The notes under the pieces are model-generated. The model worked only from the letters and a program-made list of their open reading frames with translations, had not been told where the DNA came from and did no database searches. Positions 19,202 through 34,574 of a stretch of 34,574 nt of DNA are shown in pieces. Numbering within the stretch: position 1 is the stretch's first letter; the number at the start of each line of letters is the position of its first letter. The stretch comes from Candidatus Obscuribacterales bacterium (GTDB lineage: Bacteria; Cyanobacteriota; Vampirovibrionia; Obscuribacterales; Obscuribacteraceae). The position numbers and the translations under genes are program-made. Location of the stretch: NCBI GenBank assembly GCA_020050835.1, contig JAGVKB010000029.1:1-34574 (forward strand), read 5' to 3'.

Positions 19202-20510
19202 TTATCCTTGCAAAGGTTTTCCTTTACAGAGAAAACTGAACAAGCTCGCTCGCGTCGCGTGCTTTATGTCAGCCGTTCGCTTGAGTATAAAGGCGTTCGG
19301 TGAAAACTGGGTGAAAAATTGGTGAAAACAGATTGAACACGCAAGAGTGGCGACCGCAATGCTGTTAGCTCTACCGATATTGGACATGCTAGCACCGACG
19401 GTCTTCATCCAGTCAATTAGTTTGGCACTGAGCGCGGGTGAAAACCTGCCTTCTTCAAGGACAAGATGCTCTGCCTTGCCGACTATGAGAAATGTCTTGT
19501 TGTCGGAAGGAATGTCCTTGAAGAGCTTGGCCACGGCTCGGGGAGATACAAGATGATCGTTGAGTCCTTGCACAACCAATACTGGCTTGGCAAGTTGTTT
19601 CACGTAGGTGTCCGTCTTCTTGATGAAACTCAAGAAAGAAGTTGCTTTTCCAAAGGAGAGTTTCAACTTATGAGAGCGGACTGTAAGCCAATGTTCAGTT
19701 AATTTTGGATGGGTCCGCCTGATGCATGACTGCACGACCAGCAGGACCTGGATGGCTACCTTTGAAGAGAAATAGCTCAAAGACCCCCTTCACAGCAGTT
19801 CGGCGCATCTTTAGCAATTTCCAGGCTGGCGCAGAGCAGACGACGCCATCGGCTAGTTCGGGATTTTCAGCGGCTATTCTTATGGCCAGAGCTCCACCCA
19901 TCGATTCGCCTACTAGAAAGACTTTGTAATCAGGGTGTTCCTTGTGGATGTTGGTCAGCAGTTTACTCACGTCGCCTACCGTCTCAACACAATTCAATTT
20001 TGCGCGCTCAGGCTTGTCTCTGTCTGGGCCAAAGCCCCGAACATTCACTCCGTATCCGTCGATACCGGCGGCGGATAGCTCTTGAGCCAGTGGTTTGTAG
20101 GCTCTTGCGCATAGTCCAAGTCCGTGGATGCACACGACAAAGATCTTGGCTGGAGTGGCTGCCTTCCATTCGAGCATATGCGTTCCGCCGACAATTACGC
20201 AGGAGGGATCCTCTGTGCACTGCGAGCCAATTGATGGAGTCGCTAACTGTCCAGTCGTGGCGCAGTCGTCAGCGAATGCTGGAGCTGTGATTACCAGCGC
20301 GAGCAAGCAGCACGTCAGCACCAGGAAGATAAATTTAGTTGCTCTCGCCTGATTTACCCTGCTTCGCCGTTGGCTGGTTATCTCTCTGGGGATTTGTAGT
20401 GCCTTTCTGCTCGACCGAGCAGCTTCCCGACATTCAAGTAGGTATGCCGAGTTTCGGCAGTATCCATAGCTCCTTCGCGAAAATAAAATTCTATGAAACC
20501 AAAAAATCAA
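19202..20510 (-). pseudogene. Frameshifted secreted alpha/beta hydrolase
   Basis: Two overlapping minus frames make one alpha/beta hydrolase. The first (20510-19695) has a signal-like segment (FIFLVLTCCLLALVITAPAFA), an oxyanion loop CIHGLG and the nucleophile elbow GESMGG (S203). The second has the acid residue in QGLNDHLVSP and the histidine in KAEHLVLEE. Removing one A from an AAAA run (plus-strand TTTT at 19703-19706) joins them as DPSK-LTEHW, so a single-base insertion broke the gene. The N-terminus is also odd: the only start gives about 60 residues before the signal peptide. After the natural end near WMKTV the frame runs on for about 60 residues. It resembles monoacylglycerol-lipase or lysophospholipase types. 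A sequencing error in the homopolymer is possible. Confidence 0.75.
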
Positions 20511-20564
20511 ATCAGACTTTCCATGGGGGTAGTCGCTCCTTGCTTTTTCAAGAACTCTCTTTGC

Positions 20565-20765
20565 TCATTCATGTAATTGTCTTTTTCTCCGCGCCCTCAC
20601 TGACTCGGCGCTGTTGCTTTCGTAATCCTTCCAGGCGGCAGTGCCGCCAAGAATGCTTATAAAAAGTTTGAGACCGCCTTGCATTGCCTCTTCCAATTCA
20701 GCATTGGCTGCCAGTTCAGAAGGCGCTATTTGTCTGCAAACATTGGAATTAGACAGTTCTGACAT
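20565..20765 (-). CDS. Possible small protein divergent from arsR-like gene
   Basis: The frame gives 66 aa from ATG 20765, which has GAGGG seven bases upstream. The sequence has a polar N-terminus (MSELSNSNVCRQIAPSEL), one short hydrophobic stretch (GGLKLFISILGGTAAW) and a basic tail rich in Arg. It could be a small peptide with one amphipathic helix. The good ribosome site is the main support; no family is recognised. Confidence 0.4.
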   Translation of the reverse strand: MSELSNSNVCRQIAPSELAANAELEEAMQGGLKLFISILGGTAAWKDYESNSAESVRARRKRQLHE

Positions 20766-20796
20766 AATAAGCCCTCACTCGGTATCAGCTTCAAAT

Positions 20797-20822
20797 ATAT
20801 CGCTATGTGGTTATATGGCGAA
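20797..20822. promoter_or_regulatory. Possible ArsR-type operator
   Basis: The AT-rich stretch between the small divergent ORF and the arsR-like gene contains an imperfect inverted repeat, CGCTAT (20801-20806) against ATATGGCG (20813-20820), with one mismatch. ArsR/SmtB repressors bind imperfect AT-rich palindromes in just this position, overlapping their own promoter. Confidence 0.3.
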
Positions 20823-20862
20823 TCAACCTTGGGTGAAGCTGGTGAACGCTTGGTTTCGCGTT

Positions 20863-21201
20863 ATGAAAGATAGAAACAAGCTCTTATCACGACAGGCTCT
20901 CGAAGTCGTTGCCGCGCGCTTCCGCGCGCTTTCGGACGCCTCCAGGTTACAGATACTGCAATACCTTGTTAAGTAGGAGCATTCCGTACAAGAGACTTGC
21001 GAGCTGAGCGGCATGGGTCAGGCGAACGTCAGCAAGCATTTGTCTGTTTTAGCAGAACAGGGAAGTGTTCAAAAGCGGCGGCAAGGGCTTTTTGTTTACT
21101 ACAGCGTTGGAGACAGCACAGTTTATCAGTTGTGCGATATATTATGCGGAGCTGTCGGCAAGCGCTACGGACAGTTGGTAAGAGAATTCTCTGGACGCTA
21201 G
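20863..21201 (+). pseudogene. ArsR/SmtB-family repressor interrupted by in-frame TAG
   Basis: A normal-length ArsR-type repressor (about 112 codons) can be read from ATG 20863 to TAG 21199-21201, except for a TAG at 20974-20976. Before it: VVAARFRALSDASRLQILQYLVK, the typical first helices. After it, in the same frame: EHSVQETCELSGMGQANVSKHLSVLAEQG, the recognition helix, then the wing QKRRQGLFVYYSV. One base change from a Lys, Glu or Gln codon would create this TAG. Restart at ATG 21013 would make a fragment with only part of the DNA-binding domain. The metal-binding cysteines cannot be assigned with confidence, though two Cys (CDILCG) near the C-terminus are candidates. It lies directly before the P-type ATPase that it presumably once repressed. 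Confidence 0.75.
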
Positions 21202-21229
21202 GTTGTCGCAATCCAAATTGGTGTACTTG

Positions 21230-23164
21230 ATGAAGAGTTCTCGGGAGCATCTTTCGGATGAAGTGACGAAGTCTGAGCTGAGCCAGGAGTCTCCCATCAG
21301 GTCGTGGAATTCCTTTTCTGGTCTTTGGCAGCAAAGATCAACGATAATCGCTGTTCTTTCCGTAATTGCAATTGTTTTGCATCTGTTGCTCCGCTTTGGA
21401 TTCCACGCCAAATCTGATGAAAATCAGATTCCCCTGCTAGCTACGCTTGTTCTCGGCGGGCTGCCGCTTCTCTATGACCTTACTCGAAAGTTCCTGAAGC
21501 GACAGTTCGGTTCTGACCTATTGGGTGGCATTTCCATTATTACCTCTGTCTTACTAGGCGAATTTCTGGCTGGCTCGATTATCGTTTTAATGCTCGCCGG
21601 CGGTGAAGCGTTAGAAAGCTATGCGTTGTGCAGCGCCTCCTCGGTTTTGGCCGCACTAGCCAAACGCATGCCTTCAATTGCCCACCGCAAGCGGGAATCT
21701 GAAATCATGGATGTCGCTCTGCAAGACGTTGCCGTAGGCGACACGCTCGTGGTCTACCCGCACGACATCTGCCCGGTAGACGGGGTTGTGATCGAGGGAC
21801 ATGGCGTGATGGACGAATCCTACCTGACGGGTGAGCCGTTCCAGATTACCAAAACCTCCGGCTCGACAGTGATTTCAGGCGCGATAAACGGGGAATCGGC
21901 CCTCACCATTCGCAGTACCAAGTGCGTGGCCGATTCGCGTTGTGCCAAGATCACGGAAGTCATGCGCGAGTCCGAGAACAAGCGACCACAACTGCGACGT
22001 CTCGGTGACAGATTGGGTGCGATTTACACTCCTTTGTCACTGACTGTGGCGGTTTTTGCCTGGGCCATCAGTGGAGACCCCATTCGCTTCCTTGCTGTAC
22101 TGGTTATCGCTACGCCTTGCCCGCTACTAATTGCAATACCAATAGCAATCATCGGATCGATCTCCCTTTGCGCCCGCCGAGCAATCATCGTCAAGAGTCC
22201 TGTTGTGCTAGAACAAGTCGCCGAGTGTCGAACCGCTATTTTCGACAAGACAGGGACGTTAACTTATGGCGAACCGACACTGACCGAACAACTCATCGCT
22301 CCTGGCTTCGCGCAGAAGGAAGTGCTGACACTAGTGACCAGCCTGGAGAGCTACTCGAAACATCCGCTGGCGCATGCGATTCTTGCCGCGGCGAGGACGC
22401 AAGGGATAGTGGTACCCGAGTGCACCGAGGTGAGCGAGCCGCCCGGAAAGGGACTGCGCGGGACCGTGTCCGGCCGACAGGTGCAGATAACCAGCCGTAA
22501 GCAGTTCGGTACACAACAGGTTGCCGGTAGCGACAAGCTTCCTCCGGTCGCAGGTGGACTCGAGTGCCTTGTGGTGATTGATGGGAAGTATGCAGCAGCT
22601 TTTCGCTTTCGTGATGCACCGCGTGCCGAGTGCAGTTCCTTTGTGAGACACCTCGGGCCGAAGCATGACTTTTCGCGTGTGATGATCGTGTCAGGAGATC
22701 GTGACTCTGAGGTTCGCTACCTCGCCGAATTGGTGGGAGTAAGCGAAATCTTTGCACAGCAGAGTCCTGAAGAAAAACTTGCCATAGTCCGTAAGGAAAC
22801 ACTCGCGGAGAAGACGCTCTACGTGGGAGACGGGATTAACGATGCACCATCTATGATGGCTGCTACTGTTGGAATGGCGATCGGGCAGAACAGCGACGTG
22901 ACCGCTGAAGCGGCAGGCGTCGTCATTTTGGATAACTCCCTTGAGAAAGTAGACGAGTTCATGCACATCAGCCGCCGCATGCGTTTGATCGCCATCCAGA
23001 GCGCAGTCGGCGGCATGGCGTTAAGCGCGATCGGAATGTTCTTTGCAGCTACCGGACATTTGACTCCTGTTAGTGGCGCCATCCTCCAGGAAGTCATAGA
23101 CATTCTTTCTGTACTGAATGCCTTGCGGGCCGCCTTTCCTCCACGAGTGATACATGATCTATAA
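21230..23164 (+). CDS. Heavy-metal-type P1B ATPase
   Basis: I chose ATG 21230 (644 aa, GGTG six bases upstream); TTG 21203, one base after the arsR-like stop, is an alternative. Motifs are in order: TGEP in the actuator domain (200-203), TPCPLL in the ion-path helix (295-300), phosphorylation site DKTGTLT (D339), SKHP of heavy-metal ATPases (376-379), and hinge GDGINDAP (533-540). The SxHP motif places it in P1B. There is no N-terminal metal-binding domain, and the ion-path motif is TPC rather than CPC, so copper is less likely; the metal remains open. It would pump a transition metal out across the inner membrane using ATP. All catalytic residues are intact although its neighbouring regulator is broken. 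Confidence 0.88.
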   Translation: MKSSREHLSDEVTKSELSQESPIRSWNSFSGLWQQRSTIIAVLSVIAIVLHLLLRFGFHAKSDENQIPLLATLVLGGLPLLYDLTRKFLKRQFGSDLLGGISIITSVLLGEFLAGSIIVLMLAGGEALESYALCSASSVLAALAKRMPSIAHRKRESEIMDVALQDVAVGDTLVVYPHDICPVDGVVIEGHGVMDESYLTGEPFQITKTSGSTVISGAINGESALTIRSTKCVADSRCAKITEVMRESENKRPQLRRLGDRLGAIYTPLSLTVAVFAWAISGDPIRFLAVLVIATPCPLLIAIPIAIIGSISLCARRAIIVKSPVVLEQVAECRTAIFDKTGTLTYGEPTLTEQLIAPGFAQKEVLTLVTSLESYSKHPLAHAILAAARTQGIVVPECTEVSEPPGKGLRGTVSGRQVQITSRKQFGTQQVAGSDKLPPVAGGLECLVVIDGKYAAAFRFRDAPRAECSSFVRHLGPKHDFSRVMIVSGDRDSEVRYLAELVGVSEIFAQQSPEEKLAIVRKETLAEKTLYVGDGINDAPSMMAATVGMAIGQNSDVTAEAAGVVILDNSLEKVDEFMHISRRMRLIAIQSAVGGMALSAIGMFFAATGHLTPVSGAILQEVIDILSVLNALRAAFPPRVIHDL

Positions 23165-25904: not shown

Positions 25905-28900
25905 ATGAAATCACGACACTGGTTTGTCTTATTCTCATTTCTTCTGTCCATGTTGCTTCCCTGGTTTCTCAGCGATGCTCGTTCGCTTGCTGCTGTGCCT
26001 ATCGGTTCGGAAGCCAGCGATGAAGACATTTCCACCAGGGAGAAATTCGTGCGCTTTCTGGGACGCTTTGTGCGAGATAAAAACAAAGACACGTTCATCG
26101 CTGCGCGACTCTGGGATCTCAACCATGGCAAACTCTCAGATACGGACTGCTTGGCGTTTCTGAAGGAGATCGGAAAGTTCAATGCTGGCAGTTACTCGAA
26201 AATCACAATGACGGATCTTGTTCGTGTCCAAACAGCGGTGTACGATCTTGCAATTAAAAGAAATGATCCGAAGATTGCAGCGCTCTTCTTCGGGCGTGAA
26301 GTCACCAAAGATCCTGGAGGAGACGTCAAAACCGGGGGCACCGAGGTGGAGCGTGCACTGCTGTTGTCCAGGCGGAAACTTTTGGATTCTGCCATCAGTC
26401 ATGCCATTCGCTCCGCGGGGGCCGCAATCAGGAGTAAACCCGAAAGGTTCAGCGTATATGTAGCCTTCGTAGGCTCGCATCCAGAGACTTTTGCCGGTGA
26501 CGAGGATGTTAACTTCCTGTCAAACGATCCCGATGCGGCCGAACTAATACGACAGGGCACTGAAGCGCACATTAGGTCTGTTGTGGGAATGGGAAGCGAG
26601 GAACTCGATTCCATTTTGACCATACATGGTCAGGCAACTCCGGCTGTTTATATTGGTCCGCACGGGTGCGCCTATGGACGGGAAGCGCTGGCGAAAAACC
26701 TTCGAATTCGCAGAGCTAATTTTGAACAGGAAGTTCTCTCCCCTGAGTTTCTCAGTGGCGAGGTAGTGCTAGAGGAGATGACCCGAGAAGATGCCGCTAA
26801 GTCCGCAGAAGCTAAAGTAATTGAAGCAATCCCGGAAAGCCAGTCGAAAGAGCCCGGACTGTCTATGGAAATGGCTCGGCACCTGAAATGCGATATCATC
26901 GATGTGAAGGCCTTTGATCCGGTCGATTCAATAATTAAAGCCTGCAAGTATTTAACGCGAAGCAATGAAGCGCTTAGAACTTCAGGAGTGGAAGTCGACC
27001 CGAACAATCAAGCGCTCTGCGTTTTTGCCGAAGCGGTTTGCAGTTCGAAGAGCAAAAAAGACTGGCGCCTTTTGTCCAAGAATCTTCAGTCATTCTTTCC
27101 CTCAGGTACGTTTACATACACGACATTTTCCGAGGGCGGAAAACTCCGTGCTCAAGTATCTTCTAATGAAGCAGCTGTTTCCGGTTTTATGCAGCAGGTA
27201 ATGGCGGCAATCTGGAACGACGCACGAGCGAGCCTCAATCAGCGAGTAGCAACTATCGAAGCCATGAAGTCACGGGTCACTGATGTTGAGCAGGCTAACC
27301 CGGACGAGATCAACAAAGTGCGTGAGGAGATGCGCGCACTTCTAGACATGATGAAGGCCGAAAATGCTTTGCTTCCAGCAAAGGGAGTGGAAGTACCGGA
27401 TGACATCATAAGCACCACGGAGAATCTCCAGAAGACTTACGATGACTTTCTCGCGCGCAAGGGTGGCAAGCCCATTGGACCTGGCGATCTGAAACTTGAA
27501 AAGGCCATTAATGAGTGGATAAAGTCGAATCAGCCCAGTTTGAAGGAAATGGCAAAGGGCTACATTGTAAAAGCGCTTTCAACAACTTCAGATGATTTCA
27601 ATAAGGCCTACAGCAAGCTCGATATCATCGATGATGCTTTGCTTGGCAATTTACGGGGCGAAAGTGCAGATTTCGACACATTTATGGCTGAAGCTGCCAA
27701 AGTCGATGCAGCTATGAAAGTGAGTGGAAACAGTGCTTCGGTAGCGAGCAAGCTTCAATCTCTCAAGAATTCTGCAATAGGTATCATTGGTAGTACCAAT
27801 CGTGCACTCAACGAAAAATTGGCCGGAAGTCTGGCTGGTCGTGGAACTGTCGGAGCGTTGAAGGCTTTCAACATTTATCAGGAGGTCAATGCCCTGGCAG
27901 AGGCGATGTCCACGGGAAGTTGGCGTGCATTTGGAACGATGTTGGTAAAAAACCACGTGCCACTTGTTTCGGCGAGTGAGGCGCTGTATGTGCAAGAAGA
28001 TCGCCTGCGCGCAGCATACGAACTGATTTGTAATGTATTCCCCCCTGTAGCGATCCCTGAGGGGATCTATGGCATGCTAGAGTCTATGGGCGAGTGGTCC
28101 GTCGGTAAATACCATCAATGGAACTACAAACACGTAGTCGATGATCTATACGCAGGAAGCACCTTCGACGATAGCGGGAAACTGGAGAGCATCACATATA
28201 AATGCGACGTTCCGAGTCACGGCGAGCACCGCTGCAAGACCCGGGAGGAAATTCTCGATCTCCCCAATCAGTGTCCTGCAATTTGGAAACTCTTTACGCC
28301 AGAGGTTAAGGAGCACCCGGCCATAAAGATCTTCGAGGACATGCTAAAGACCAAGCTGGTGTCGGACGGCGAAGTATCCGGTGTTGGCTGGCCTAAAGGT
28401 TACAACGGCCTTTCAGAAAAGTATGGTGTGGAGCTACATAAGCTGTATCTCCTCAAAGTCAATCAAGTGACGAAAAAGTACTTTGAAGGAGTAATAGAAG
28501 AACTTGAGCGTCGTTATGCATTCGACCAGGGCGAGACGTATAAGAAGATTATTGAGATTGGTAAAGAACTGGGGTGTTCCGAACCGATAGCTGTGAAGAC
28601 AGGTGATTCTGCCGCAGACCAGAAGAGATTTGACGAGATCATATTGGATTACTCTGAACTCAAGAATGCAAATGAGGCGATCGTAGCCCTAAAGACGAAA
28701 TGGAATGCGGAATTCCTTGAACCGTTCCAACCCGAGTGTTCTGCTGAGTCCATAAAGTCTTGCGCGAAACAAGCGAAGGAACTATTAGAAAAGCTCAACG
28801 AGGCACAAGCCATCGCTTACAGCGACGTAAAAAAAATCGTTGGAGAAAAAGCAGCATTGACTACAGACACGTTGCGCGCGCCAACTAAGGCCAGACTGGG

Positions 28901-31900
28901 ACTGGCCTTCTATCCTGAAGGATCTTCCATGCAGGCTCTAAGCAAAGAAGATTATGAACGGGCTCTGAACAATTTGCGCAAAGTTCGGACCGATCTAATC
29001 GCTGAGTTGTCTTATCCCCCAGTGGCTTATATGGGGGAGCGCGTCACGATACAGGCAACTTACGATAGACCAGTGGACGAATACAATATTAAATGGTTGC
29101 TCGTTGATGCTCCGAGAGACTTTAAGTTCATTTTCGAGTCACCGGATATGGTGGTATTCAAGCCATCCTATGAAGGCACGTATGTAATCAGGCTCACCGC
29201 AATCGAGAAGAAGAGCGGAGCGACCCTCGGGCAGGTTCTAACCTCCGGAGGCCTTCATATGTTGGGAAACGCGATTATCAAAATCATGTCTGCATCTGAA
29301 GCTCCCGAAAAGATCTATTTGGAAACGCCCTTCAAGAATCAGCACTCGATAACTGAAGTCGGTCCGAATGTGCAGGTGCCGGTTTCTATCGCTTACGAAA
29401 GTCCACCCAGACCGGGCTACGAATACTGCAAATTCGAGTGGATGGTTAATGGTAGGAAAGTGTCCGACAGGGCTACTGAAAATCCATTCTATGAGTTTGT
29501 TAGCCCAAGCGCTGCTGGATCGACGGAACTATCAGTGGTGGCGGCGAATAAACAACAGCGCATTTACATTGCAAAACATGTGGTCACTGTAATCCCGGAA
29601 TTGCCGGAAAAACAACAAACTCTCAAAGTGGTAGTCAAAACGGTTCCCTCTGGTAAGGTCAGTTTTCTCGAGGGGGAGCAGATCACCTTGGCGGCTAGCG
29701 TTGCTATGAAATCTGGTGGTAGCAAAGCAACATATCATTGGTTCGTCAACAATTCCCCTGCTGGTGACGGGACCAGTGTCTGTAAGATTGACACAACCGG
29801 TCAAGGAGGGAAGTCACTCAAGGTGGAGGTCCTGGTCCAACAGGCTCTGGGCGAGGCTCTGCTGGAAGGGCACGAAACGAAAATCTGCAAAATTGAGAGT
29901 CGGGGCGGACCTCTTTATGTAACTCTATTTCCAATAAACCGGAGTTCTCTTCCCTGTGGAACTAAGATCGAGTTTGAGGTGATGGAGCCCAAATATGATC
30001 CAAACTTGTACACGTATGAGTGGTTCTATTCAGTTGACGGGAATTGGAGCACAGTTGTTCTTTGCGACAAACCGGTCTATGTAGCAGAGTTAAACACCGA
30101 AGGTCAAATTCTTCAATTCAAGGCTGTCGTTACCGATAAGAAAGGAAGAAGGGGTGAGGCAAGAACCAGAAGTATCAGCGTAGGTCCTCGTGTTGAAAGA
30201 CTCGTTGTCTCGGTTACCCCACGATACGCCAGGATATACGAGAACCAAACTGTGATGATTCGAGCTAAGGTGAAACCGTTTTCCGACAGCGGTGTTCTTT
30301 CTTTCAATGGTGTGAAGAACCCGTCCGGCATGGTAGACATCACGTTCCAGTTTGCAGGGAAGGGCAGAGAGGGATTGTACCCGGTCTACATTCTGGCTGA
30401 AGACTCGAAAGCTCGACAAGGAGAGGCTGTCGCTGAAATATTCGTCATGAAAGGTTCTGCGCCTTCCAAGACAACAAAATCAGCTTCACCAAGAGCCGGG
30501 TCCCAAGATGGATCTTCGCCGGCAAAAACCGCTGTTAAGCCCACTGAAGTCAATCTCGGAGAACCGACCAAAGCATCACCGGTAACACCAGGATCGACAA
30601 AGACGTCTCCGGATCCCGCTGTCAGCGCCAATGGCGATAAATTCGGCAACAAGCCTGGCGAGAAAACGGATGAGGACAAGGATAAGTCCGCCGATAAGCC
30701 CGCTGATAAGCCCGGAAGAACGGATGCAGTGCTCAGCGCGCAGATTTCGCTGCTCACACCGCAGGAAGTAATGGCTACAGATATTTTTGAAGTAAGGGCT
30801 ACTCTGGAACCACCTTCCGCATCTAAGTTCAATTGGTCACCGGCACCCTTTGAGCAGCAGGGTGCGAAAGCAACTTTCCAATTCCCCGTCGATTCCGCCG
30901 GTAATCGCGAAATAGCATGTACTGCGCTCAACGAGCGAAATGAAGTAGTTGCCTCCAGAACTACTCCAATTCCGGTAAAAGCTGCATATGTCTGCGGCAC
31001 CATACCGACAACCTGGGGCTCGGTTACTTCAAGTGATTTCATGGTAAACCGAAAAACAGATGGACAAGAGTTTCCTGTCAGGGCCAGCGTTACAGCAAAG
31101 CTAACTACTGCAACTGCGGGCTCGCTTAAAGCTTCATTCGATTCTGCCTTATCCCGATACCCCAACGCAGCAGGGCAGACCAGGGCGCTTACCGTTGGCG
31201 ACTTCAAGGGTTCCTTGAAGGAATTGCCGGACTTGCTGATTACCAGCTCTCCAGGAAGTGTGAGCGGATCGATCGTTCACACCTTCAGTGCTGGTGGTTA
31301 CGGGTTTGCGCAGAAAGGTGGCTGCCCAATTGAGGTGTTCTACAACGTGACTGCTACTGCAATCGAGTCGCACGCATCGAAGAAGTCAAATACCCTGGAA
31401 GATCTCAGGTCGCAGGCCAAAGCAGCTCTTAGCGAAGTGAAGGCAATTATCGACAGTTTGAGAGTTTCTTCTGCACGCGGTATCAATGTAGTGCAAACAG
31501 CCAAAGACGAAACCGTGAAAGCCACAGTAAGGTTGCGCGCTGACAAGCAAAAGGTCAAAGCAAATGAACAGACCATAGTAGAAGCTTTTGTTGATAATGC
31601 GGCGCCGGCAGACGAACCGCTTCAGTACACCTGGACCGGAAACCATGAGGGTTCAGGCAGTAAGGTTCGATTCCTGGCAAGTAAAGGTGGCGCCTATACG
31701 CTTTCTGTAGCAGTCAGCGGTAAACTTGGTGCTGTTGGTAACGCTGAAGTGAAAATTGAAGTCGAACAACTGCAAGCAAATCTTACTGGTGTTCCCAAAC
31801 AAATCTATTACGGTCAATCGGCCAATATCGCTGTAGAAATTCCCGCGTTGAAGATTTCGGGAGTAGTGGCAAAGAAACCGGTAGATCAATCCACTGTCTT

Positions 31901-34001
31901 TGCGACGGATAAAGAAGACGACGAAGCTGCTTCGGAGCTAAACGTAATTTGGCATGCAGAACCTTCTGTAGAATTTAAGCATCCGAATACGTCGAATGCC
32001 AGCAATGAGGTCACGTTCTCCCGCGCGGGACCGGTGAAGTTATGGGCACAGATAGAACTCGGGCGAGGTTCGCAGGCAACACTGATCGAAACACCTCAAG
32101 TAGTTACGAACGTTCAGTCGCCGAGTTTCAGGATCAATTTCAATCCTCCCAATGGAGCCAAGCCTGGTCAAGAAATTGTTGCCACTGTATCCGAAAATCC
32201 TGTGGTGAAAAATCCCTTAATCAGTTTCAAATGGGACTCTCCTCCATCCAACAACCGGATGGAAATGAGTGATAACGCCCGTTGCATCAAGTTTAAGCTC
32301 AAAGATAAACCCCAATATGAGCTGCTTGTCCAGCCAGAAGTTCCGTACTATAGGGATTCAATTGGTGGTCCGGTCAAAGCGACCTACCAGGGCAGTTCTT
32401 ACTCAGTAAAGGCCAGCGTCGAAGAAATCGGACCGAAACCGCAAGTTTGGGACCCCATAAAGAAGGGGCTTGTGGAGATGGCGAAAGGAACATTCGCCAC
32501 CGGTGAGCGCATTCACCTAATCGCGTCGTTAGTGGGAGAGCCTAAACCGGATGAAATACGCTGGAGCTGGAGCGTTAGTGACGGTACCTCAATTAGCAAT
32601 AACATTTCTTCGACACCGACCATCTCACGTTCAGAACCTGGTAGTGCAGTTTGCTCAGTCACGGCAAGGGACAAGGACGGTACTGTACTGGGCGCAGACT
32701 CTGTAACCATATCTGTCTTTTCTCCAGAGCCTGTTCCAACCAAGTCACCCGACGAGCAAACCAGGGTCAAACAAGCAGCGAAGATCGCAGGAGACCTGGC
32801 TCAACATTTAGCTGATGCGAAATTCTACGATCAGAGCGGCCAGCACGACAAAGCCGCAGCATCAGCGGAAGCAGCGTCGAAGTTGGCTCCGTCGAATCAG
32901 GAGCTGGCTAATTATGTTCAGAGTCTCAAGACTAAGGCCGCCAACATTCCCTCTATCACCGGGACAGACGCGAGTATTCCAACTACTCCACCGAAGGATG
33001 ATAGGCCGGTGAGCAAATGGGGGCTTCGGTCCACGCCTGACAATATCAAACCCGAGTGGACTGCGCCCGCCACCACCAGTGGCAGCACTGGTCCGGCACT
33101 TCCTGCCACCGCCGATAAGTCCAAGATTGGCGTACCAGCAAGTGCTGATAAGGCAAAAACCGGCTGGACCGTTCCCGCCACCACCGGTGTCAGCACCAGC
33201 CCGGTAGTTCCCGCCACCGGTGATAAGTCCAAGATTGGCGTGCCAGCAAGTGCTGATAAGGCGAAAACCGGCTGGACCGTTCCCGCCACCACTGGTGTCA
33301 GCACCAGTCCGGCAGTTCCCGCCACCGCTGATAAGACCAAGATTGGCTCGGTGGGTCCACACAGTTATCCGTCCGTGGTAGGAAAGTGGACCTGGTTCAC
33401 GGGAGGGAATGTGGAGCTCTACCCTAACGGAACATTGAAGCAAGCCACGCTCAGTGGCAGCTGGATTCAAACCGGTAATAAGTTGCAGATCACATGGAGT
33501 CACGGATACTACGACAAGATGGTTCTGTCTGCCGATGGAAACAAACTAAGTGGTTATGGTTCTCGAAGTGCAACCGCTACCCACGGATTTACCGTTTGGG
33601 GACATCGAATAGCAACGCCTCCGAACGCAACAGTGAATCCCGCCTCCATGACCAGGCCTGACAAGTCCGCAAGCGCTGATATAGCAAAAACCGGTGGGAC
33701 CGTTCCGTCCACCACTGGTGGCAGCACCAGCCCGGCTCAAACGGGAGCCAAGGAGGCTCTGTTAGGGAATTGGCAATTTATGAACGGCTTGGGTACGTTT
33801 TATTCCAACGGTACATGCCGCCACAGTCACGGTACAACGGGTACATGGACGCTTTATCCGGATAGAACTTTGCGAATTAGCTGGAGCAATGGTTGGTTCA
33901 ACACCTTGTGCCTTTCCAAAGACGGAACATATCTCAAAGGATTCGACTCGATGAACCCGCACGCCAGTAGCGGACGAGATGTGTGGGCCAGGAAGTTGTA
34001 A
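25905..34001 (+). CDS. Giant exported protein with Ig/PKD-like repeats and C-terminal beta modules
   Basis: The product is 2698 aa from ATG 25905; the ribosome site is weak. A signal peptide covers residues 1-30 (FVLFSFLLSMLLPWFL, cut near SLAA). Residues 40-1030 are mostly helical with coiled-coil stretches, including a small region GSHPETFAGDED at 190-201. From about 1033 to 1515 come five Ig/PKD-like domains (for example ERVTIQATYD ... NIKWLLVD; SKATYHWFVNN). A Lys/Asp/Pro/Ser linker follows (about 1516-1610), then more Ig-like and beta domains to about 2280 (LQYTWTGNHEG, IRWSWSVSDG). A TPR-like helical pair sits at 2288-2350, Thr/Ala/Pro repeats at about 2388-2481, and two G-x-W beta modules at 2492-2570 and 2621-2698. 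This is most likely a surface or periplasmic scaffold or adhesin. No enzymatic domain or sorting signal is visible. Confidence 0.85.
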   Translation: MKSRHWFVLFSFLLSMLLPWFLSDARSLAAVPIGSEASDEDISTREKFVRFLGRFVRDKNKDTFIAARLWDLNHGKLSDTDCLAFLKEIGKFNAGSYSKITMTDLVRVQTAVYDLAIKRNDPKIAALFFGREVTKDPGGDVKTGGTEVERALLLSRRKLLDSAISHAIRSAGAAIRSKPERFSVYVAFVGSHPETFAGDEDVNFLSNDPDAAELIRQGTEAHIRSVVGMGSEELDSILTIHGQATPAVYIGPHGCAYGREALAKNLRIRRANFEQEVLSPEFLSGEVVLEEMTREDAAKSAEAKVIEAIPESQSKEPGLSMEMARHLKCDIIDVKAFDPVDSIIKACKYLTRSNEALRTSGVEVDPNNQALCVFAEAVCSSKSKKDWRLLSKNLQSFFPSGTFTYTTFSEGGKLRAQVSSNEAAVSGFMQQVMAAIWNDARASLNQRVATIEAMKSRVTDVEQANPDEINKVREEMRALLDMMKAENALLPAKGVEVPDDIISTTENLQKTYDDFLARKGGKPIGPGDLKLEKAINEWIKSNQPSLKEMAKGYIVKALSTTSDDFNKAYSKLDIIDDALLGNLRGESADFDTFMAEAAKVDAAMKVSGNSASVASKLQSLKNSAIGIIGSTNRALNEKLAGSLAGRGTVGALKAFNIYQEVNALAEAMSTGSWRAFGTMLVKNHVPLVSASEALYVQEDRLRAAYELICNVFPPVAIPEGIYGMLESMGEWSVGKYHQWNYKHVVDDLYAGSTFDDSGKLESITYKCDVPSHGEHRCKTREEILDLPNQCPAIWKLFTPEVKEHPAIKIFEDMLKTKLVSDGEVSGVGWPKGYNGLSEKYGVELHKLYLLKVNQVTKKYFEGVIEELERRYAFDQGETYKKIIEIGKELGCSEPIAVKTGDSAADQKRFDEIILDYSELKNANEAIVALKTKWNAEFLEPFQPECSAESIKSCAKQAKELLEKLNEAQAIAYSDVKKIVGEKAALTTDTLRAPTKARLGLAFYPEGSSMQALSKEDYERALNNLRKVRTDLIAELSYPPVAYMGERVTIQATYDRPVDEYNIKWLLVDAPRDFKFIFESPDMVVFKPSYEGTYVIRLTAIEKKSGATLGQVLTSGGLHMLGNAIIKIMSASEAPEKIYLETPFKNQHSITEVGPNVQVPVSIAYESPPRPGYEYCKFEWMVNGRKVSDRATENPFYEFVSPSAAGSTELSVVAANKQQRIYIAKHVVTVIPELPEKQQTLKVVVKTVPSGKVSFLEGEQITLAASVAMKSGGSKATYHWFVNNSPAGDGTSVCKIDTTGQGGKSLKVEVLVQQALGEALLEGHETKICKIESRGGPLYVTLFPINRSSLPCGTKIEFEVMEPKYDPNLYTYEWFYSVDGNWSTVVLCDKPVYVAELNTEGQILQFKAVVTDKKGRRGEARTRSISVGPRVERLVVSVTPRYARIYENQTVMIRAKVKPFSDSGVLSFNGVKNPSGMVDITFQFAGKGREGLYPVYILAEDSKARQGEAVAEIFVMKGSAPSKTTKSASPRAGSQDGSSPAKTAVKPTEVNLGEPTKASPVTPGSTKTSPDPAVSANGDKFGNKPGEKTDEDKDKSADKPADKPGRTDAVLSAQISLLTPQEVMATDIFEVRATLEPPSASKFNWSPAPFEQQGAKATFQFPVDSAGNREIACTALNERNEVVASRTTPIPVKAAYVCGTIPTTWGSVTSSDFMVNRKTDGQEFPVRASVTAKLTTATAGSLKASFDSALSRYPNAAGQTRALTVGDFKGSLKELPDLLITSSPGSVSGSIVHTFSAGGYGFAQKGGCPIEVFYNVTATAIESHASKKSNTLEDLRSQAKAALSEVKAIIDSLRVSSARGINVVQTAKDETVKATVRLRADKQKVKANEQTIVEAFVDNAAPADEPLQYTWTGNHEGSGSKVRFLASKGGAYTLSVAVSGKLGAVGNAEVKIEVEQLQANLTGVPKQIYYGQSANIAVEIPALKISGVVAKKPVDQSTVFATDKEDDEAASELNVIWHAEPSVEFKHPNTSNASNEVTFSRAGPVKLWAQIELGRGSQATLIETPQVVTNVQSPSFRINFNPPNGAKPGQEIVATVSENPVVKNPLISFKWDSPPSNNRMEMSDNARCIKFKLKDKPQYELLVQPEVPYYRDSIGGPVKATYQGSSYSVKASVEEIGPKPQVWDPIKKGLVEMAKGTFATGERIHLIASLVGEPKPDEIRWSWSVSDGTSISNNISSTPTISRSEPGSAVCSVTARDKDGTVLGADSVTISVFSPEPVPTKSPDEQTRVKQAAKIAGDLAQHLADAKFYDQSGQHDKAAASAEAASKLAPSNQELANYVQSLKTKAANIPSITGTDASIPTTPPKDDRPVSKWGLRSTPDNIKPEWTAPATTSGSTGPALPATADKSKIGVPASADKAKTGWTVPATTGVSTSPVVPATGDKSKIGVPASADKAKTGWTVPATTGVSTSPAVPATADKTKIGSVGPHSYPSVVGKWTWFTGGNVELYPNGTLKQATLSGSWIQTGNKLQITWSHGYYDKMVLSADGNKLSGYGSRSATATHGFTVWGHRIATPPNATVNPASMTRPDKSASADIAKTGGTVPSTTGGSTSPAQTGAKEALLGNWQFMNGLGTFYSNGTCRHSHGTTGTWTLYPDRTLRISWSNGWFNTLCLSKDGTYLKGFDSMNPHASSGRDVWARKL
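33066..33347 (+). repeat. 108-bp in-frame tandem repeat (2.6 copies)
   Basis: Two full 108-bp units (33066-33173, 33174-33281) and one partial unit (33282-33347) encode the 36-residue repeat PATT-G-ST-P, then PAT-DKSKIGVPASADKAKTGWTV. The units are nearly identical in DNA, so the expansion is recent. A worn partial copy at about 33660-33740 (DKSASADIAKTGGTVPSTTGG) separates the two C-terminal beta modules, so the repeats act as flexible spacers between folded parts. Confidence 0.9.
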
Positions 34002-34062
34002 TCGGAGGCGTACTCCGGCAGGTTCTAAGTCGCTTCAAGGCGTGTGCGCAGCTGCCTCCGAT
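34001..34062 (+). terminator. Possible terminator of the giant gene
   Basis: ATCGGAGGC (34001-34009) is exactly inverted as GCCTCCGAT (34054-34062), followed by TTATC. The loop is long (44 nt), so it is a weak candidate; a smaller CGGAG/CTCCG hairpin sits inside the left part. Confidence 0.35.
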
Positions 34063-34165
34063 TTATCACCGATCATCAGAACCAAGTTAGAGAAGCGGCA
34101 CGAATGAAGCCCCGAAGAACTAGCACTGGCTTTCGCCTCGCTGCCAACTTCCTGCCAACTTCAAT

Positions 34166-34193
34166 GAAAACGGCTCATTCTTTCCAGAGCCGT
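34166..34193 (-). terminator. Intrinsic terminator downstream of the tRNA-Arg half
   Basis: On the minus strand ACGGCTC (34193-34187), a 10-nt loop and GAGCCGT (34176-34170) form a perfect 7-bp stem followed directly by TTTC (the T tract TTTT counts the last paired base). It lies about 20 nt beyond the 3' end of the tRNA half, exactly where a tRNA terminator is expected. Confidence 0.7.
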
Positions 34194-34213
34194 CAGATAA
34201 GCCGTTTTAAGTT

Positions 34214-34255
34214 CCTGCCCGGCAAGACTCGAACTTGCGACCTCATGGTTCGTAG
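34214..34255 (-). tRNA. 3' half of tRNA-Arg(ACG); probable att site
   Basis: Read on the minus strand: anticodon loop CTACGAA (anticodon ACG, arginine), 3' anticodon strand CCATG, variable AGGTC, T-arm GCAAG-TTCGAGT-CTTGC with all five pairs, 3' acceptor strand CGGGCAG, and discriminator G. CCA is not encoded. The loop CTACGAACC is the same as in well-known tRNA-Arg(ACG). Upstream, where CATGG, the D-arm and CTGCCCG should be, there is AT-rich unrelated sequence, so the gene is cut exactly at the anticodon loop. Such 3' halves are the usual scar of tyrosine-recombinase integration. Not a functional tRNA. Confidence 0.8.
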
Positions 34256-34367
34256 AAATTTAAAATTCGATTTTTCTGAACTTTCCGATGGTCTCCGGAA
34301 TCTTTTGACAGCCGCATAGTGACTGTGTTTTACTAGAGTTATCAGTTTTCTTGGTCTAAGCGAAACC

Positions 34368-34574
34368 TCACCCATTTTTCGCAAAAACATATACCCCACA
34401 TAGACCCAGACTCGACTGAAACCATGATGAATAAGAGTGCTTGCCGTAGCGGTAATGATGGAATTGGCCCTCGGTAACAATCCGCTTGCTGCCAGAAAGA
34501 AAAAGGATGGTATCACTCTCGGCGATCTCTTCAAAGAGTATCTTCATGGGTACGCCATCGATCATTGCAAGACA
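34368..34574 (-). CDS. Possible C-terminal part of an unknown protein (partial)
   Basis: An open minus frame enters from the right edge and ends with TGA at 34370-34368. It reads ...MKILFEEIAESDTILFLSGSK, then IVTEGQFHHYRYGKHSYSSW and ends VYVFAKNG. An in-frame ATG occurs at 34565 and another at 34547, so it may be a short complete gene (about 59-65 aa) or the end of a longer one. Codon choice is sensible but no family is recognised. If the tRNA scar is read correctly, this gene belongs to the integrated element. Confidence 0.35.
   Translation of the reverse strand, partial: CLAMIDGVPMKILFEEIAESDTILFLSGSKRIVTEGQFHHYRYGKHSYSSWFQSSLGLCGVYVFAKNG

Follow-up and report, generated by a model that had tools for sequence, protein, structure and literature searches.

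Genomic islands that integrate into transfer RNA (tRNA) genes are known to leave a rebuilt tRNA at one end and a displaced fragment of it at the other, with an anticodon-loop subsite of crossover, and tandems of two or more are uncommon, with 125 listed (Islander, PMC4383910). Arrays formed by tandem accretion are also known for integrative and conjugative elements (ICEs), integrative and mobilizable elements (IMEs) and cis-mobilizable elements (CIMEs) (reviewed in PMC5704250). Here, we analyze a 34,574-nucleotide contig (C19; JAGVKB010000029.1) of a Candidatus Obscuribacterales bacterium (assembly GCA_020050835.1), referred to throughout as the window, whose right end carries the 3′ half of a tRNA-Arg(ACG) gene with a putative integrase arm site on either side. 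This site is very probably the junction of two integrative elements lying head to tail in an array that targets tRNA-Arg(ACG). The genome is a 7.0-Mb draft in 154 contigs, of which C4, C22, C87 and C101 also concern us, and the relatives named below, including ACE_CYA3, are metagenome-assembled genomes of Candidatus Obscuribacterales. The features are as follows, where P is the tRNA-side and P′ the integrase-side end of an element:

34214–34255, minus strand: att (attachment) core, the 3′ half of tRNA-Arg(ACG), 42 nt from anticodon loop to discriminator.
About 34167–34208, minus strand: terminator hairpin after the tRNA half, folding at −15.5 kcal/mol (z −3.5).
34141–34162, minus strand: putative P-type arm site of the left-hand element, a perfect tandem of two GAAGTTGGCAG units with an 11-bp period.
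34386–34407, minus strand: putative P′-type arm site of the right-hand element, reading GGGTCTATGTGGGGTATATGTT exactly as in ACE_CYA3 element 2.
34242–34434, plus strand: P′ region at the integrase end of the right-hand element; its 193 nt and the ACE_CYA3 site at C2:1356660 share 94.8% identity.
34434–34574, plus strand, running off the contig end: remnant of an arm-type tyrosine recombinase (integrase), residues about 98–146, without the N-terminal arm-binding domain.
C22, 1–129: continuation of the integrase remnant, followed by a jump to residue 394.
25905–34140, plus strand: interior DNA next to the P end of the putative left-hand element, encoding a 2698-residue PKD/Ig-domain protein and including a spacer.

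The preliminary description of this DNA recognized an exact tRNA-Arg(ACG) 3′ half with its terminator, and both are present. The half breaks off sharply at the anticodon loop and consists, in order, of the 7-nt anticodon loop CTACGAA, CCATG, AGGTC, the T arm GCAAG-TTCGAGT-CTTGC, CGGGCAG and a final G; ARAGORN finds no whole tRNA in the window, an Rfam scan of it gives no match, and it contains no tRNA-Leu halves, which would be a sign of a second island type. None of 200 shuffled sequences folds as well as the hairpin, which starts about 6 nt past the tRNA and not at the claimed spacing of about 20 nt. The terminator stretch is 84% identical to one that follows the whole tRNA-Arg gene on C4, where an element lies beyond the terminator.

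The arm sites point to a junction. When the flanks of 39 tRNA-Arg 3′ half sites (whole genes or orphans) were scanned for direct repeats with periods of 8–14, period 11 alone peaked, with at least 8/9 matches at 17 sites downstream and 13 upstream, compared to about 0.9 in shuffles. The upstream repeats lie 140–173 nt from the core, beside the integrase, and the downstream repeats mostly about 72 nt or about 25 nt past the tRNA. Whole tRNA genes have only P arms, of the downstream kind; terminal orphans have only P′ arms, on the upstream, integrase side; and some orphans are armed on both sides. Elements in G013 (4.9 kb), G002 (23 kb) and ACE_CYA3 (36 and 28.5 kb) run core to core on single contigs, each member bounded by its own att cores and with matching repeats at its two ends, and past the junction core the repeat is another one; the double-armed orphans are therefore element–element junctions, and the window contains one site of this kind. 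Arms of the same element match at 19–25 of 26 positions in six of six elements (permutation P 0.001; C4–C101 and G011 were paired by their arms and are not independent), and arms facing each other across eight junctions, the window included, match at 8–17 of 26. The window's own two arms match at only 8/26. No period-11 repeat in the window other than its GAAGTTGGCAG arm reaches 9/9, a tandem repeat at 1–400 having been excluded from the scan. That tandem repeat also occurs on contig C70 and is probably what stopped the assembly at this end.

Because terminal scars carry the P′ kind only and both-armed sites are junctions, what lies to the left is most likely not native DNA but the end of a second element. 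In the proposed mechanism, the P end of a family element would carry a copy of the tRNA 3′ half with its terminator, and the P′ end the integrase. Crossover in the anticodon loop would rebuild the tRNA with the element's own 3′ half, the previous 3′ half would be left at the integrase end, and a second integration at the same core would leave the older element's P end abutting the integrase end of the new arrival. We infer both the order in which the two window elements were inserted and that neither is now mobile by itself.

That the site is an att scar of a tyrosine-recombinase element with an element on its right was correctly foreseen, as the integrase remnant beginning at 34434 continues on C22. 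This broken integrase is the first gene of the rightward element; a partial gene at 34368, which had been put in that place, is absent from the list of open reading frames (ORFs). The last 99 nt of the window are the first 99 nt of C22, and no other contig-end overlap was found when C4, C101, C87 and C22 were compared. The C101 integrase, which is intact and has both Pfam domains, Arm-DNA-bind_3 and Phage_integrase, gives collinear matches as a homology query to C19:34428–34574, C22:19–129 and, weakly, C22:119–217 (E 0.03). Aligned with the G007 integrase, which is closer, the joined remnant corresponds to residues 98–154 (74% identity) followed by residues 394–425 (69%); it lacks the arm-binding domain and the greater part of the catalytic domain. 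Neither of the two domains that define an arm-type tyrosine integrase is complete in the window/C22 copy, which is therefore a pseudogene of the family; beside the att site there is only this remnant, and in the relatives the integrase is intact. Matches of the integrase in phage and plasmid collections are below 60% identity throughout, the best among the matches listed being at about 23–29%. The G007 element sits on a record titled Proteobacteria (L137; JAJPJO010000003.1), and since its family is Obscuribacterales-like the title may be wrong.

The closest counterpart is in ACE_CYA3, where one 1.8-Mb contig has a whole tRNA-Arg at 1421088 and orphans at 1385182 and 1356660, and thus two tandem elements. 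The second of these (JAHBVO010000002.1, about 1356660–1385182) resembles the right-hand element in its P′ end (95% identical), in the protein identity of the integrase fragments (98–100%) and in the next gene, which is 90% identical and in conserved order on C22; its integrase, however, is intact where the window/C22 copy is broken. This collinear match supports the join of C19 to C22 independently of the assembly overlap, and judged by these identities the right-hand element is related to the 28.5-kb ACE_CYA3 element 2 and has decayed. The deeper cargo differs, with nitric-oxide reductase and nitrate genes (as read from the sequences) in ACE_CYA3 element 2 versus ars genes on C22 (L007, 1581–6298: ArsR, ArsI/CadI, ArsC-like, ACR3, ArsD and ArsA). 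ArsR/ArsI-like genes were also seen by eye in the C101 element (L009, 264–1035).

A degenerate pattern for the tRNA half, run on the whole genome, found it five times, once as a whole gene (C4) and four times as an orphan (the window, C22, C87 and C101); reversing the pattern as a control gave no matches. The window half is identical at 42/42 positions to the orphans on C87 and C101, as expected of the displaced 3′ fragments of tRNA-integrating genomic islands. It matches the whole gene on C4 at 37/42, with the mismatches in the T arm, and the C22 orphan also at 37/42. Among relatives' tRNA-Arg(ACG) genes (L018–L046), the T arm varies between genera, with next to no variation in the D and anticodon arms; repeated replacement of the 3′ half by elements would give this pattern (tRNA-Arg(ACG) alone was compared). 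The whole gene on C4 adjoins LpxI and a rhomboid-type gene, and because one or other of these neighbors recurs beside the whole tRNA-Arg in eleven relatives, the C4 locus is taken as ancestral. A partner whole tRNA had been expected to the right of the window, but C22, followed rightward to a conserved tRNA-Leu(CAA)–pcp locus, contains no whole tRNA-Arg(ACG); the genome's only one is that on C4, together with another element whose arms match the C101 orphan and not the window. The C22 island ends 374 bp from tRNA-Leu(CAA), whose link to a pcp-like gene is kept in 13 of the 14 loci found in relatives. At this end (C22, 12437–12935) lies the C22 orphan half, the second on the joined contigs, with its own TCCACATG-type repeat and no tRNA 5′ half. 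It is possible that an array of tRNA-Arg type reached the tRNA-Leu locus by loss of a tRNA 5′ half or by rearrangement between orphan cores. An 11-bp-period repeat, TGTGTGACTAT, is also seen downstream of tRNA-Leu(CAA) in G006 (L113), which suggests that a related element family uses tRNA-Leu(CAA) too.

Several observations weigh against a two-element junction in the window. A search of the genome gave neither a partner P′ arm for the left-hand element nor a partner P arm for its right-hand neighbor, the left-hand element's integrase is absent from the window, and the arms of the C22 orphan match neither window arm. When the left arm was sought in 50 family genomes, 12 of them (the window's own included) had matches; these are about as frequent as in the control and have neither tRNA nor integrase close by. 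An otherwise lost element with a remnant P end would look the same. The position of the array relative to the whole tRNA cannot be read from a 154-contig draft.

The strongest alternative is a simple terminal att scar, with one element on the right and native flank and native terminator on the left, as the preliminary description had it. A half tRNA with its terminator and an integrase remnant on the right are what such a scar would show, and the other end of a left-hand element was not found; we nevertheless regard it as unlikely, because past the terminator lies a 22-nt perfect 11-bp repeat at the place of the P arm in relatives, where it marks the tRNA-side end of an element, and the terminal scars of C101, G015, G022 and ACE_CYA3 (1356660) have none. 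The native downstream flank was also sought through tRNA-Leu neighbors and ACE_CYA3 flank genes, with no homologues in the window, and the window's glycosyltransferase matches relatives only at about 28% and provides no synteny anchor. A further alternative, an attP-like site carrying both arms of a single element and placed, for example, at a non-tRNA site by other means, would account for the missing tRNA 5′ half and for a core armed on both sides; it is highly improbable given how poorly the two window arms match when compared to those of one element, and given that the integrase-side arm is a GGGTCTATG arm, a type that in ACE_CYA3 has GGGTCTATG at its P end as well. A misjoined repeat at the right end is scarcely credible, since, even with the contig stopping inside an integrase with a 99-nt overlap, the usual form of an assembly-graph break, the core, P′ region and integrase stretch are internal to the contig and have counterparts in an independent genome, matching over 193 nt and 47 codons, and C22 continues with the same neighboring gene as ACE_CYA3 element 2.

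If the site is a junction of two elements, the left-hand one is represented in the window by core, terminator and P arm, and from the arm site the DNA left of 34141, including the 2698-residue PKD/Ig-type protein, would belong to it. This protein gene has an internal tandem repeat at 33048–33347. Further left, a heavy-metal P-type ATPase is encoded at 21203–23164, and downstream of its ars genes C22 has stretches resembling 19401–20541 (75% identity) and 20699–21092 (72%), which fits a putative shared metal-resistance cargo. Upstream of the ATPase gene (20860–21200), inspection by eye showed a reading frame for an ArsR-like regulator, interrupted in frame by a TAG near 20974. No transfer proteins were found among the window ORFs scanned, the elements there being incomplete; C87 and ACE_CYA3 element 1 have relaxase- and coupling-protein-like genes. 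On C87 (L010, 225–6963) these are a MobL-like relaxase (a weak match) and a type IV secretion system coupling protein, with an excisionase-like helix-turn-helix gene, and they adjoin a tRNA-Arg orphan that has arms on both sides and lies about 200 bp from tRNA-Gly; this is likely a mobilizable element next to a deleted one.

Comparison of 17 integrases shows that N-terminal similarity tracks arm-repeat similarity (Mantel r 0.83; none of 5000 permutations as high). Identity between the neighboring ACE_CYA3 integrases is 54% in the N-terminal arm-binding part and rises to 89% from the core-binding domain on; in DNA, it is 76–93% for the latter and about 47–66% over the arm region and N-terminal coding sequence, and the two have different arm repeats, GGGTCTATG and AGGTGTAGTG. 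Common ancestry can partly produce the overall correlation between domain and repeat, but not the ACE_CYA3 mosaic. We tentatively propose, from sequence comparison, that same-core tandem elements may stay apart by swapping the arm-binding domain and the 11-bp-phased arm repeats as a module; if so, each integrase would recognize only its own two ends, an address code over a common core. The mosaic makes it possible to test how stacked elements with the same core avoid excising their neighbors. The tRNA-Arg-targeting family is widespread in Candidatus Obscuribacterales, in some cases beside arsenic or other metal-resistance cargo, and period-11 arms on one versus both sides of a tRNA half offer a simple rule for recognizing tandem islands in draft genomes.

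Like the tRNA-gene islands of Islander (PMC4383910), these elements have a tyrosine integrase, a displaced 3′ fragment, an anticodon-loop crossover and a tRNA restored by the element, but the window fragment borders another element's arm site and the assembled stretch ends without a whole tRNA. As in ICE, IME and CIME accretion (PMC5704250), att sites persist in decayed members after loss of the integrase; the differences are the Obscuribacterales lineage, the lack of transfer genes found in the window, and a common core combined with differing arm repeats. A search of the literature gave no description of such elements in Candidatus Obscuribacterales. The IntF and IntB prophage integrases of Oenococcus oeni (PMC8074189) similarly pair N-terminal differences with different arm direct repeats, although they are 92% identical overall, against 54% (arm-binding part) and 89% (remainder) for the ACE_CYA3 neighbors, and are thus a milder precedent. 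The site described here is a partly decayed example of the known tRNA-integrating tandem elements, in the Obscuribacterales lineage.
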